DNA from: Bacteroidota bacterium
GTDB taxonomy: Bacteria; Bacteroidota; Ignavibacteria; Ignavibacteriales; Ignavibacteriaceae
Length of the DNA: 64,000 bases
NCBI GenBank assembly: GCA_021813585.1
Contig: JAKAJV010000102.1
Location: 62,001-126,000, forward strand
Direction of reading: 5' to 3'
Shown: one piece after another, positions 11,296 to 18,309 of the stretch
Position numbering within the stretch: position 1 is the first letter of the stretch
Layout: every line of letters starts with the position of its first letter
Notes under the pieces: generated by a model
What the model was told of the DNA's origin: nothing
Databases searched by the model: none
What the model saw: the letters and a program-made list of their open reading frames with translations, nothing else
Position numbers and translations under genes: made by a program

Positions 11296-11329
11296 AAATC
11301 CCCTCGCTGTTTGAGGGGATTTGTTTTTT
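11296..11329 (+). terminator. Rho-independent terminator after isocitrate dehydrogenase
   Basis: A 10-bp perfect stem AAATCCCCTC / GAGGGGATTT (11296-11305 and 11313-11322) with a 7-base loop is followed by G and six T. It separates the dehydrogenase from the HD-domain gene, so the downstream genes need read-through or their own promoter. Confidence 0.9.
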
Positions 11330-11341
11330 AGCGAGGAAATA

Positions 11342-11875
11342 ATGCGCGATAAAGTTTTAGATATATGGCCGGAAATTAACTGGATAAAAAACGTAGAGCT
11401 TAAAGAGAAGGTGCTGAACTGCTGGATTTATGCGGTTGAGAACAGCGTTCTTTCTATTGATGACCTAAAAGTTATTCCCTTCTCGTTGCTGCTGAAGGAT
11501 TGTAAAATTTCATTTATGACTCACAAGAGAACCGCAGTGCATCTTTCGGTGGAAATGGCTAAGATAATGATGAAAAATTTCGGCGACGAGATTAAAATTG
11601 ATATGGATACGCTTATTGCAGGGGCAATTTTAATAGACGTAGGCAAGCTTCTTGAATATGAATTAAAAGACGGCAAGCTTACTACCAGTGCTGCCGGTAA
11701 TTTAGTTAGGCACCCCTTCAGCGGGATGGCAATTGCAGACCGCTTTAACCTGCCGGCCGAAGTACAGCATATTATCGCTACGCATTCAAAAGAGGGCGAC
11801 CTGGGAAAGCGCACAGTTGAATCCATCATTGTTCATCATGCGGACTTCGTTAGCTTTGATCCGTTTAAAGCGTAA
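11342..11875 (+). CDS. HD-domain protein with a degenerate metal dyad
   Basis: A 177-residue protein of the HD phosphohydrolase superfamily. Conserved histidines are visible: His68 (TAVHLS), His124 in RHPFSG, His148 in IATHSKEGD, and HHADFV (165-170). At the defining His-Asp doublet, however, the sequence reads A-I-L-I-D-V-G-K, so the metal-ligand His is Ile98 (codon ATA). Metal-dependent hydrolysis may therefore be lost or altered. The start is the ATG at 11342, with GAGGA seven bases upstream; an upstream TTG would place the start inside the terminator. It lies between isocitrate dehydrogenase and the first four-helix-bundle element. The role is unknown; nucleotide binding or sensing is plausible. 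Confidence 0.8.
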   Translation: MRDKVLDIWPEINWIKNVELKEKVLNCWIYAVENSVLSIDDLKVIPFSLLLKDCKISFMTHKRTAVHLSVEMAKIMMKNFGDEIKIDMDTLIAGAILIDVGKLLEYELKDGKLTTSAAGNLVRHPFSGMAIADRFNLPAEVQHIIATHSKEGDLGKRTVESIIVHHADFVSFDPFKA

Positions 11876-11888
11876 ACGGGAAGACGGG

Positions 11889-11919
11889 AAACGTGGAGAC
11901 GGAAGACGGGAAGACGAGA
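11889..11919. repeat. Left complementary arm of four-helix-bundle element 1
   Basis: A purine-rich segment built from GGAAGACG-like subrepeats. It is complementary at 26 of 31 positions to 12418-12448 on the far side of the four-helix-bundle gene. Transcribed RNA could therefore form a long imperfect stem enclosing the gene. This is direct sequence comparison by eye; folding energy was not computed. Confidence 0.7.
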
Positions 11920-12015
11920 AGATGCACAGATGAAAGATTTTGGTGAAAATTATAAAATTGGAATTGAGGGTTTAAACAAATATTAACCTAAAAATATATT
12001 TTAAAGGAGAAAAAA

Positions 12016-12375
12016 ATGTTAAACCTCAATCACAAAAGCTTAGATGTTTGGAAGAAGGGAATGGATATTGTAGTTGAAATATATAAACTAACAAGGCTAT
12101 TTCCCAAGGAGGAATTATTTATACTTACTTCTCAATTAAGAAGGGCAGCTGTATCAATTCCGTCTAATGTAGCAGAGGGCTTTGCACGAATCTCTGAGCC
12201 GGAAACTAAAAGATTTTTAGATATTGCTAGAGCCTCGTTAGTTGAGATTGATACTCAAATAGATGTTTCATTATCATTAAAATATTTAAGAGAAGACCAA
12301 ATAACAAATTTATCAGAAATTGCAAATCATGAATTTGCAATGCTGACGAACCTAATTAAAAAATATTCAAAGTGA
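12016..12375 (+). CDS. Four-helix-bundle protein, 23S intervening-sequence-protein family (copy 1)
   Basis: 119 residues with the hallmarks of the IVP / four-helix-bundle family (TIGR02436 type): an N-terminal L-D-V-W motif, F-P-K-E-E-L-F, then QLRRAAVSIPSNVAEGFAR and a C-terminal helical stretch. The family is found inside 23S rRNA intervening sequences and as stand-alone genes; its bAvd relatives assist diversity-generating retroelements by binding nucleic acid. The function here is unknown. AAGGAG is a strong ribosome site seven bases before the ATG, unlike the weak sites of neighbouring metabolic genes. It lies between the HD-domain and aconitase genes and is bracketed by complementary sequence, with a five-copy tandem array on its right. 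Confidence 0.92.
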   Translation: MLNLNHKSLDVWKKGMDIVVEIYKLTRLFPKEELFILTSQLRRAAVSIPSNVAEGFARISEPETKRFLDIARASLVEIDTQIDVSLSLKYLREDQITNLSEIANHEFAMLTNLIKKYSK

Positions 12376-12420
12376 GAATAGAAAAAAGAAATAAGAGCAA
12401 ATACATTTTTGAACCTCTCT

Positions 12421-12495
12421 CGTCTACACGTCTTACGTCTACACGTCTTACGTCTACACGTTTTTCGTCTACACGTTTTTCGTCTACACGTCTTA
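12421..12495. repeat. Five-copy 15-bp tandem array (right arm of element 1)
   Basis: Five consecutive 15-bp units of the form CGTCTACACGTCTTA, the third and fourth ending in TTTTT instead. The first two units and the three bases before them pair with the purine-rich left arm at 11889-11919. There are no spacers, so it is not CRISPR. It ends 31 bp before the aconitase start. Confidence 0.9.
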
Positions 12496-12526
12496 ACTTT
12501 CTACAACTCACTCCACCGGAGGTAGG

Positions 12527-14494
12527 ATGTCACAAACATTAATCGAAAAAATAGCACAGAAGTCTGCTGTAGGGCTGGACAAAAACCACGAGGTCCGCAG
12601 CGGCGATTATTTATCTATTAAGCCTGCTTATGTAATGACCCACGATAATACCGGGGCTGTAATTCCGAAATTTAAAAGCATCGGTGCAGCCAAACTGGCT
12701 AACCCGAGGCAGGTAGTCCACACGCTCGATCATAACGTGCAGGACACAAGCGAGAAGAACCTTGAAAAGTATAGGAAGATAGAAGAATTTTCTAAAAAGA
12801 TGGGTGCCGATTTCTATCCCGCAGGCCGGGGCATCGGTCACCAGATAATGTGCGAGGAAGGCTATGCATTCCCCGGCACTCTGGTTGTAGCATCAGACAG
12901 TCATTCAAATATTTACGGAGGCCTAGGCTGCCTTGGTACACCCATTGTAAGAACCGACGCCGCAGCTATCTGGGCTACCGGCAGAACCTGGTGGCAAGTT
13001 CCGCCGATTGCCAAGGTTGAGCTTAAAGGTAAATTGAGACCCGGCGTAACAGGCAAGGATCTTATTATCGCTTTGTGCGGCTACTTTAACAACGATGAGG
13101 TTCTGAACTTTGCAATTGAATTTACCGGAGAAGGCGTAAAAAACTTGCCGGTGGATGAGAGATTGACCGTAGCAAACATGACAACCGAATGGGGCGCGCT
13201 CGCAGGAGTCTTTCCGATTGACGAAGTTACAATTAAATGGCTTAAAGATAGAGCGGATAAAATTCATACCCGCGGGCTCGCAGGCGTTCCTTCCGATGAG
13301 GACGGCAAAGGCTCTCACCCCAGGCTTAATTTAAAAAGAATTTCAAAGATCGAGCAGAATATCTGTAAAGCAGACGAGGGAGCGTTCTACGCCAAAGAAA
13401 TTATAATCGATCTATCATCGGTTCAGCCGTTTGTATCCGGGCCTAACACGGTTAAGACCATTACATCCCTTTCCGAAATAAAAGCCAAACAGATAAAGAT
13501 AAACAAGGCCTATCTGGTTTCTTGCGTCAACAGCCGGGTAAACGATCTATCCGAGGCGGCTTCAATCGTACGCGGTAAAAAAGTAGCGGAGGGAGTTAAG
13601 TTTTATATTGCCGCAGCTTCCAGCGAAGTTCAGGAAGAAAGCGAAAAGCGCGGCGACTGGCAGACACTTATTCACGCAGGCGCAATCCCTCTGCCTCCCG
13701 GCTGCGGGCCCTGCATCGGGCTTGGCACCGGTCTTCTTGAAGATGGTGAAGTAGGCATATCAGCAACCAATAGAAATTTTAAGGGCAGAATGGGATCACC
13801 TAATGCTCAGGCTTATCTGGCCTCACCGGCAGTGGTTGCCGCTTCGGCTATTGCCGGCAAAATAGATTACTCGTGGGAATACAGCCCGGATAATATCTAC
13901 GCCGATATAAGAGTAAATAAAAAATCTCAGGACCAGTCAAAGAAAGTTGAGATCATAAAAGGCTTTCCGGCAGCTGTTGAGGGCGAGATTATTTTTTGCC
14001 ACCAGGATAACCTTAACACCGACGGTATTTATCCCGGCAAGTATACTTATATTGACGACTACACTCCCGAGCAGCAGGCAAAAGTGGTTATGGAGAACTA
14101 CGACCCCGAGTTCGTAAAGATTGCTAAGGAAGGAGACATACTGGCCGGCGGTTTTAACTTCGGTACTGGCAGCTCGCGCGAACAGGCTGCAACCGCACTA
14201 AAGTATAAAGGAATTAAACTTGTTGTTGCGGGTTCGTTAAATGAAACATACAAGCGCAATGCGCTGAACAACGGCTTCTTACTAATTGAGTGCCCCGAGC
14301 TGATTGTGGATTTAAAGAAAAAGGTAGGAAAAGATAAGTTGACGGTAAAGACCGGAATGATTGCGAAAATAGATTTCTCAAGCTCGCAAATTTCGGTTAA
14401 TAAGAAAAAATATTCATTCGACCCGGTGGGCAAAGCAGCGCAAGAATTAATTGTGGACGGCGGACTTGAAAGCTGGGTAAGAAAAAATTTATAA
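12527..14494 (+). CDS. Aconitase-family hydratase, LYS4-like branch
   Basis: Iron-sulfur hydro-lyase of 655 residues, expected to interconvert citrate, cis-aconitate and isocitrate. Cluster ligands are Cys333 (VSCVNSR) and Cys393/Cys396 (GCGPC). The swivel domain carries the catalytic-Ser motif GSSREQA near residue 545. Stretches such as FYPAGRGIGHQIM, VASDSHSN and TEWGALAGVFP match what I know of fungal homoaconitase (LYS4) better than AcnA or AcnB. Partner genes for isocitrate and citrate argue for aconitase activity rather than lysine biosynthesis; a homocitrate substrate cannot be excluded. CCGGAGG lies 7 bases before the ATG. PrpD follows after 18 bp. Confidence 0.88.
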   Translation: MSQTLIEKIAQKSAVGLDKNHEVRSGDYLSIKPAYVMTHDNTGAVIPKFKSIGAAKLANPRQVVHTLDHNVQDTSEKNLEKYRKIEEFSKKMGADFYPAGRGIGHQIMCEEGYAFPGTLVVASDSHSNIYGGLGCLGTPIVRTDAAAIWATGRTWWQVPPIAKVELKGKLRPGVTGKDLIIALCGYFNNDEVLNFAIEFTGEGVKNLPVDERLTVANMTTEWGALAGVFPIDEVTIKWLKDRADKIHTRGLAGVPSDEDGKGSHPRLNLKRISKIEQNICKADEGAFYAKEIIIDLSSVQPFVSGPNTVKTITSLSEIKAKQIKINKAYLVSCVNSRVNDLSEAASIVRGKKVAEGVKFYIAAASSEVQEESEKRGDWQTLIHAGAIPLPPGCGPCIGLGTGLLEDGEVGISATNRNFKGRMGSPNAQAYLASPAVVAASAIAGKIDYSWEYSPDNIYADIRVNKKSQDQSKKVEIIKGFPAAVEGEIIFCHQDNLNTDGIYPGKYTYIDDYTPEQQAKVVMENYDPEFVKIAKEGDILAGGFNFGTGSSREQAATALKYKGIKLVVAGSLNETYKRNALNNGFLLIECPELIVDLKKKVGKDKLTVKTGMIAKIDFSSSQISVNKKKYSFDPVGKAAQELIVDGGLESWVRKNL

Positions 14495-16051: not shown

Positions 16052-16318
16052 ATGCAGGCATTGATATACACCGAAGCGAGAAATAAACTAAATAAGATTA
16101 TCGATAAGGTAAACGAAAATAATGAGCCGTACCTGGTTGTTGGGAGTAAGGGAAGAAAAGATGCCGTTATTATTTCGAAAGAAGATTATGATAACATGGT
16201 TGAAAATTTATATATCCTGGGTAATCCGCGGTGGGTAAAAAGTATAAAAAAGGGATTAAAGGAGTTAGATGAGGAAAAAGGGAAAAGATTAAACTCATTT
16301 GAAGCCTTAGTAATCTGA
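16052..16318 (+). CDS. Orphan Phd/YefM-family antitoxin
   Basis: 88 residues with the Phd/YefM antitoxin fold: an N-terminal DNA-binding part (Y-T-E-A-R-N-K-L-N-K-I-I-D-K-V), then PYLVV, DAVIISKEDYDNMVENLYIL, and a variable C-terminal helical toxin-neutralising tail. GAGGT lies seven bases before the ATG. A RelE/YoeB- or Doc-like toxin would normally follow within a few bases; the next 120 bp have no such gene and then the citrate-lyase fusion begins. It therefore looks like an orphan antitoxin or a transcriptional regulator derived from one. It has its own near-consensus promoter within the cluster. Confidence 0.88.
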   Translation: MQALIYTEARNKLNKIIDKVNENNEPYLVVGSKGRKDAVIISKEDYDNMVENLYILGNPRWVKSIKKGLKELDEEKGKRLNSFEALVI

Positions 16319-17664: not shown

Positions 17665-17685
17665 GCTGTCATTCGGTTGTCATTC
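17665..17685. repeat. Left complementary arm of four-helix-bundle element 2
   Basis: A 21-base segment containing GCTGTCATTC and GTTGTCATTC. It is the reverse complement, at 20 of 21 positions, of 18139-18159 in the tandem array on the other side of the four-helix-bundle gene. The one difference would be a G-U pair in RNA. The array offers four identical partner sites for it. Confidence 0.85.
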
Positions 17686-17746: not shown

Positions 17747-18151
17747 ATGAAGCTTGAAGAACTAAACGTTTATCAGTTATCAATGTCGATAGCAGAAGAA
17801 ATTTGGGATATTGTAAAAAAGTGGGATTATTTTACAAAAGATACTGTCGGCAAGCAACTTGTTCGAGCGGCTGATTCGATTGCTGAAAATCTAAGTGAAG
17901 GCTTTGGAAGGTTTTTTTACAAGGAAGAAAGACAATTCTGTTATTATTCAAGAGGCTCTTTGTATGAAACGAAAACCTGGTTAACAAAAGCTTCAAATAG
18001 AGGACTTATTAATACAAAGGATTTTGAAAAATTTAAAAAAGAGATAAATAACATTGGAGTAAAATTAAATAATTACATTAAATCGATTGGAAAAAAGAAA
18101 CAATCTTGGGATAAAATACAACTGAATGACAGCGAAGCGAATGACAACTGA
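17747..18151 (+). CDS. Four-helix-bundle protein, 23S intervening-sequence-protein family (copy 2)
   Basis: 134 residues of the same IVP-like family as the copy near 12.0 kb but clearly diverged. Family features are L-N-V-Y-Q-L-S-M near the start, GKQLVRAADSIAENLSEGFG, then helical RGSLYETKTWLTKA. AGGAGG lies seven bases before the ATG. The coding region runs into the 26-bp tandem array: the last nine residues (LNDSEANDN) and the stop codon are written by repeat DNA, suggesting that the gene end and array were joined secondarily or travel together. It sits between the citrate-lyase fusion and CitF, and is bracketed by complementary sequence like copy 1. The function is unknown; RNA binding is an inference from the family. 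Confidence 0.92.
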   Translation: MKLEELNVYQLSMSIAEEIWDIVKKWDYFTKDTVGKQLVRAADSIAENLSEGFGRFFYKEERQFCYYSRGSLYETKTWLTKASNRGLINTKDFEKFKKEINNIGVKLNNYIKSIGKKKQSWDKIQLNDSEANDN

Positions 18152-18250
18152 ATGACAGCGAAGCGAATGACAACTGAATGACAGCGAAGCGAATGACAAC
18201 TGAATGACAGCGAAGCGAATGACAACTGAATGACAGCGAAGCGAATGACA
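18121..18250. repeat. Five-copy 26-bp tandem array (right arm of element 2)
   Basis: Five identical head-to-tail 26-bp units, starting at 18121, 18147, 18173, 18199 and 18225. Each contains ACTGAATGACAGCGAAGCG followed by AATGACA. There are no spacers, so it is not CRISPR. The first unit encodes the C-terminus and stop codon of the preceding gene. Unit boundaries are complementary to 17665-17685. Identity between copies implies recent expansion. Confidence 0.95.
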
Positions 18251-18309
18251 ATAGTAAATCAATCAAAACTAAATTATTTCAGAATAATAAACTTTTAAAT
18301 AATCAAACA

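Follow-up and report, generated by a model that had tools for sequence, protein, structure and literature searches.

The window, by which we mean the whole 64-kb stretch of DNA analysed, contains a co-directional run of genes read in order as isocitrate dehydrogenase-like, HD-domain, IVP, aconitase, MmgE/PrpD-like, antitoxin-like, citE-like, a second IVP and citF-like (names other than IVP were assigned from the translations by eye, without profile searches). Each IVP gene is flanked by repeat arms, and we refer to a gene together with its arms as an element; all features listed below are on the forward strand.

Element 1 and its neighbours
11321–11875, + strand: HD-domain protein gene, the 5' neighbour (ATG at 11343; stop codon adjoins the left arm)
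11876–11919, + strand: left arm, degenerate repeat ACGGGAAGACGGGAAACGTGGAGACGG..., complementary at 35 of 44 positions to 12418–12461
12004–12009, + strand: ribosome-binding site AAGGAG, read directly, six bases ahead of the ATG
12016–12375, + strand: IVP gene, 119 aa, PF05635/TIGR02436 four-helix-bundle protein
12421–12495, + strand: right arm, CGTCTACACGTCTTA repeated five times in tandem; pairs best with the left arm over 12418–12461
12527–14494, + strand: aconitase gene, the 3' neighbour, starting 31 bases past the right arm

Element 2
17665–17685, + strand: left arm, GCTGTCATTCGGTTGTCATTC, complementary at 20 of 21 positions to 18217–18237
17747–18151, + strand: IVP gene, 134 aa, PF05635 (E 1.2e-28); its last codons overlap the first array unit
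18118–18251, + strand: right arm, 5.2 perfect copies of ACAACTGAATGACAGCGAAGCGAATG

The product of the gene at 12016–12375 matches the PF05635 profile (Pfam 23S_rRNA_IVP) with an E value of 2.5e-35, above the gathering score, and has a relative of solved structure in PDB 2gsc (E 3.1e-28). An Rfam search of the 64-kb window gave zero matches and hence no rRNA there; element 1 lies outside any rRNA gene, with the HD-domain and aconitase genes on either side. A Phd/YefM-like antitoxin ORF is present at 16052–16318 of the window, between the MmgE/PrpD-like and citE-like genes, and no adjoining toxin gene was noticed.

The first-pass annotation had described a five-copy, 15-bp array at 12421–12495 and a strong Shine-Dalgarno sequence before the gene, and both are present as described: the array comprises 5.0 copies of its unit with 93% matches, the period of 15 being composed of 7 + 8. 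It had also placed a left arm at 11889–11919, complementary to the array at 26 of 31 positions. The complementarity is there, with a count of 25 of 31 that is itself beyond chance (178 random trials over the same search space gave a mean of 16.5 and a maximum of 21), and the extent proposed was too short, as the ungapped match covers the full 44 nt of 11876–11919 and the first base of the arm directly follows the TAA (11873–11875) of the HD-domain gene. The flanks of element 1 align with a score of 47, whereas dinucleotide shuffling of these flanks (100 shuffles) gave at most 27 and 991 other positions of the window at most 30. The order of arm, gene and array recurs in element 2, as had been noted for the copy at 17.7 kb, where the repeat unit is 26 nt long and not a plain heptamer. 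The units of the two elements are unrelated, again as first described, which fits their protein distance: units are common to close IVP relatives and differ between distant ones, so that the unit diverges with the protein.

Flank complementarity across the IVP family

All six IVP genes of the window's genome were judged by eye to be bracketed by arms. A comparison of IVP flanks with control flanks, proposed in the first-pass annotation, was carried out by aligning the roughly 300 bp that precede each IVP gene with the 300 bp that follow it, the latter reverse-complemented; a score of 28, the genomic 99th percentile (reached by about 1% of genomic positions), served as the threshold. The 76 IVP genes of the window's genome and related genomes had a median score of 30.5, whereas crossed flanks and genomic positions each had a median of 18; 43 of the genes exceeded 28, and 38/76 exceeded 30, a score passed at 0/991 genomic positions. 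Extension to 80 IVP genes from named loci, which span many phyla and include an ANME-1 archaeal contig, gave a median of 34 against 18, with 50/80 above 30, a score exceeded by 2.5% of crossed pairs and by 0.5% of the 1361 genomic positions.

When the sets were pooled, 137 of 210 distinct IVP genes (65%), from many phyla, scored above 28; a conserved motif was the basis for choosing the named set and the genes share descent, so that the 210 are not independent trials, although the crossed control is made of the same sequences. This breadth upholds the earlier argument that recurrence of the layout speaks against chance, except that the two copies in the window are not strictly independent, since both belong to a single gene family and lie in the same operon, a frequent host of such elements. 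In roughly one third of IVP genes arms were not detectable. Among non-IVP control genes almost none had bracketed flanks once duplicate IVP entries were removed; the initial control ORF set had contained 8.4% high scorers, mostly identical IVP genes in overlapping loci. One IVP gene of the window's genome is accompanied by three CTTGAA/TAAGTT-type arrays (L004, 765–1410 and 1866–1910), two of which bracket the neighbouring gene, possibly representing two adjacent elements.

Anatomy of the arms

The arms are mostly degenerate tandem repeats, with self-match values of 0.53, 0.52 and 0.48 at lags of 7, 14 and 21 compared with 0.27. The best lag was 7 in 97 and 8 in 29 of the 137 armed IVP genes, and arrays of period 7 or 8 outnumber those of all other periods in the upstream flanks. 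On the coding strand the left arms are G-rich and C-poor (G > C in 122/137). Their placement is tight: the median distance from the upstream stop codon to the outer end of the left arm is 2 nt (10 nt or less in 78/125), and the right arm ends a median of 14.5 nt before the next start.

Mismatches between the two arms were of the G-U type in 145 cases and of the A-C type in 159 (p 0.46), and this lack of a G-U excess favours upkeep of the arms in DNA over selection on RNA pairing. Selection acting on RNA only was rejected on this basis. We also considered arm-supplied stop codons as the cause of period 7. The share of left arms with a stop in one or more frames is not raised over that of shuffles (81% vs 88%) and the explanation was rejected, a weak hint remaining in that 36% of left arms have stops in all three frames compared with 18% of shuffles.

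Occupied and empty junctions in related genomes

The junction between the HD-domain and aconitase genes is empty, at 15 to 46 bp, in six genomes of the family (L077, L078, L082, L087, L092 and L100), of which L077 belongs to the same genus as the window's genome and has an aconitase 87% identical to that in the window. An IVP element occupies this junction in L076, the window's genome, and also in L079, L081, L083, L084, L085, L090, L091 and L094, and the elements found there use several different repeat units among genomes. The citF junction is occupied in L106, L118, L122, L126 and L131 and empty elsewhere. At the HD-aconitase junction of L098 there is a gene-less hairpin of AATTGTT repeats.

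Divergence of arms and protein

Elements whose proteins are more than 80% identical have highly similar arms, and below 50% identity the similarity is at background. At 65–75% protein identity the two arms within one element score 1.31 per base against each other, a figure inflated by the choice of elements with matching arms, and an arm compared with a related element scores 0.56 against the same arm and 0.56 against the opposite arm. These equal values, together with the fall with distance, indicate at the level of sequence comparison that the arms of one element evolve in concert.

Arm units are also shared by elements with unrelated neighbours on both sides. At 73–79% protein identity, common units were found in L118 (citF junction) with L079 and L084 (aconitase junction), in L225 (Oryzomonas) with L055 (a relative of the window's genome), in L224 with L233 (Acidobacteria), and in L154 with L155; common units in unrelated contexts are the pattern that moving or transferring a whole element would leave. 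The median dN/dS of the IVP protein is 0.083 over pairs sharing 72% identity or more, many of which are close to saturated at synonymous sites; on this measure, the protein is under purifying selection.

Dispersed repeats carrying the unit of the resident IVP gene

Rehm et al. (2015, PMC4692102) reported 186 GGGAATC arrays in X. campestris, with 70 cases of convergent pairs and an average distance of 28 nt to the neighbouring gene on the 5' side; they gave no cause for the arrays. We found the Xanthomonas IVP gene (L214 and three others) to be bracketed by the same GGGAATC unit. The L214 genome has 455 matches to three tandem GGGANTN units and 1 to the reversed pattern; overlapping matches were counted, so that the loci are fewer than 455. 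For GTGANTN, five genomes whose IVP gene has that arm unit gave 147, 26, 18, 22 and 17 matches (the figure for G344 is partly low complexity, given its 21 matches to the reversed control), compared with 1, 0, 0, 2, 0, 0, 0, 2, 0 and 1 in ten genomes in which the IVP gene has a different unit or lacks a detected arm. Of 14 array loci sampled in Oryzomonas, 12 are convergent pairs, always plus then minus; an IVP gene is present at only one of the sampled loci and the rest are short-loop hairpins.

Dispersed cognate repeats were found in G343–G348. The window's genome has no dispersed family, the arm of element 1 having one weak 37-nt match there and that of element 2 none of note. The dispersed form is limited to some genomes. 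Noncoding period-7 arrays numbered 7 and 4 in two IVP-rich genomes against 5 (G032) and 0 in two relatives without detected IVP, in a comparison of small, AT-rich samples (257 to 400 kb) for which the detector missed at least one IVP copy (L433). An ORF-less period-7/8 array of ACGAAAA-type units lies directly past a stop codon elsewhere in the window's genome (L274, 1513–1600); its unit is related to the arm of element 1, and it may be a remnant.

Comparison with known systems

What IVP/S23p proteins do and where rRNA intervening sequences come from are questions dating from the early 1990s (PMC4990558). In the 23S intervening sequence (IVS) of Coxiella burnetii, tandem GACAGAT heptamers stand just upstream of the IVP gene, a repeat-bearing 28-bp terminal stem is cut by RNase III, and the encoded protein appears not to be made (PMC4990558). 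The elements described here share with it the PF05635 protein, complementary ends with the potential to form a stem, and heptamers. They differ in that the window element stands between protein-coding genes of an operon and not in rRNA, and in that the arms of non-ribosomal elements are long, lineage-specific repeat arrays.

A second parallel is with RAYT-REPIN systems (PMC2817692), in which, as here, a small single gene is surrounded by inverted repeats that co-diverge with it; in some genomes, gene-less dispersed hairpins likewise carry the unit of the resident gene. Unlike a RAYT, IVP is a four-helix bundle whose matches were confined to IVP and, weakly, the Avd type, with no HUH transposase motif among them; its arms are tandem heptamers and not REP palindromes, and the window's genome has no dispersed repeat family. 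The GGGAATC heptamers of Xanthomonas resemble our elements in sharing the arm unit of the Xanthomonas IVP gene, and their dispersed copies are often convergent and near the end of the upstream gene; PMC4692102 treats these and the GGGGATT repeats of Nostoc as quadruplex-forming and names no associated gene. According to work cited there, heptamer arrays were noted in 2007 as over-represented in bacteria, without an accepted cause, and slippage was proposed. With the Avd and bAvd proteins of diversity-generating retroelements IVP shares a fold family (the NF033474 match is weak, 22.5 bits against a cut-off of 80); unlike in those systems, neither a reverse transcriptase nor a variable or template repeat was noticed next to the IVP gene when the ORF list was read by eye. 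A search of open-access papers found no description of IVP arms.

Proposed role of the IVP element

The best reading, in our view, is that the non-ribosomal IVP element is a relative of the 23S IVS working like a RAYT-REPIN system. We think it fairly probable that an IVP gene between complementary tandem-repeat arms spreads in this way, the mobility and the binding being what we infer. The element, in the spacer between two co-directional operon genes, would move or be copied as one unit and leave short hairpins behind. The IVP protein, by recognising its own lineage's arms in the form of RNA, hairpin DNA or single-stranded DNA, would promote their spread or upkeep; the solved relative 2gsc is a pentamer in which four-helix bundles make up a five-fold ring. 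The chemistry would be left to host enzymes, as a nuclease, a reverse transcriptase or a transposase domain was not found in IVP. The arms are probably kept alike in DNA, through slippage within an array and arm-to-arm copying during replication or repair. Once transcribed they could pair as a long stem, by analogy with the 23S rRNA insertions excised by RNase III, and such a stem may limit damage to the host operon. Mobilisation of IVP elements was not seen, and target-site duplication was not established from the junctions compared. Also counting against this reading are the nearly unique arm sequence in the window's genome, the share of IVP genes in which arms were not detected, the five period-7 arrays of G032 despite its lack of a detected IVP, and the Coxiella protein that seems not to be produced.

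A wider proposal, which we make tentatively and hold to be somewhat short of an even chance, is that IVP proteins are the partners of bacteria-wide mobile repeats of the heptamer-hairpin type, each lineage reading its own heptamer and driving the spread of gene-less hairpins. This would explain part of the heptamer excess, and the 23S IVS would be copies that landed in rRNA.

Two other accounts were weighed. The arms may be an RNA device, kept for an RNase III-cut stem that separates the IVP message from flanking messages or tunes their decay, with mobility incidental or past. The predicted fold of 11870–12520 does pair the arms (-157.7 kcal/mol, z -4.9, from 20 shuffles only), the upstream gene is co-directional in 95% of IVP elements compared with 89% of control genes (p 0.012), and the Coxiella stem supplies a precedent for RNase III cleavage (PMC4990558). 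We nevertheless regard this as unlikely, as the missing G-U excess is what would be expected if identity is maintained in DNA, and cognate hairpins are also dispersed without an IVP gene. Alternatively, the repeats could be passive, growing by slippage and corrected against their inverted copies, with IVP genes merely resident in such spacers. The slippage proposed for bacterial heptamer arrays in the work cited in PMC4692102 agrees with this, as does the finding of few or many heptamer arrays in two sampled genomes whatever their detected IVP status. It is a distinctly poor prospect when set against the near absence of bracketed non-IVP controls (duplicate IVP entries aside), the divergence of units with the IVP protein and their persistence after relocation to other contexts, and the tracking of the resident IVP unit by GTGANTN arrays in five genomes against ten. 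An origin in chance or in the low complexity of AT-rich spacers has negligible probability: some weak cases (score < 28) do look like chance, yet the controls already refute such an artefact, given the 38/76 and 50/80 genes above 30 against 0/991 and 0.5% of 1361 genomic positions and the failure of dinucleotide shuffles to reproduce the complementarity.

On the RAYT-REPIN-like reading, a mystery protein some 30 years old may belong to a repeat-spreading element. The finding links the IVP/S23p-IVS puzzle with the bacterial heptamer excess and renders both testable, as the structure of a relative is solved (2gsc), short oligonucleotides of defined sequence are the predicted targets, and for each lineage its own unit is predicted. 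By analogy, the IVP genes within cas operons (PMC3936711) may be operon-dwelling elements and not CRISPR components.

Other repeat-bracketed genes

Among GxxExxY genes (PF13366) of relatives, 20/27 have complementary flanks scoring above 28, with other units, so that IVP genes are not alone in having this layout, and some broader process may operate. Armed GxxExxY genes occur within L282–L311 (for example L284, L311, L282, L286 and L309), with units such as CACAGAGAA and CGCAGATTT. At the HD-aconitase junction of L086 and L089 there is an ORF read as GIY-YIG-like with inverted repeats of the type GTCATTGCGAG...AAGCAATCT at its ends; among GIY-YIG genes of relatives, an automatic test gave complementary flanks for only 4 of 13. 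The citF operon of relatives gathers several kinds of repeat-bracketed small genes, including a RAYT-like gene with REP-like palindromes near citF (L116, 3253–3805) and a GxxExxY gene with arms (L124). Finally, a DUF559-like ORF lies between CCTCTTCCCCCTCC inverted repeats in L212 (4168–4612).
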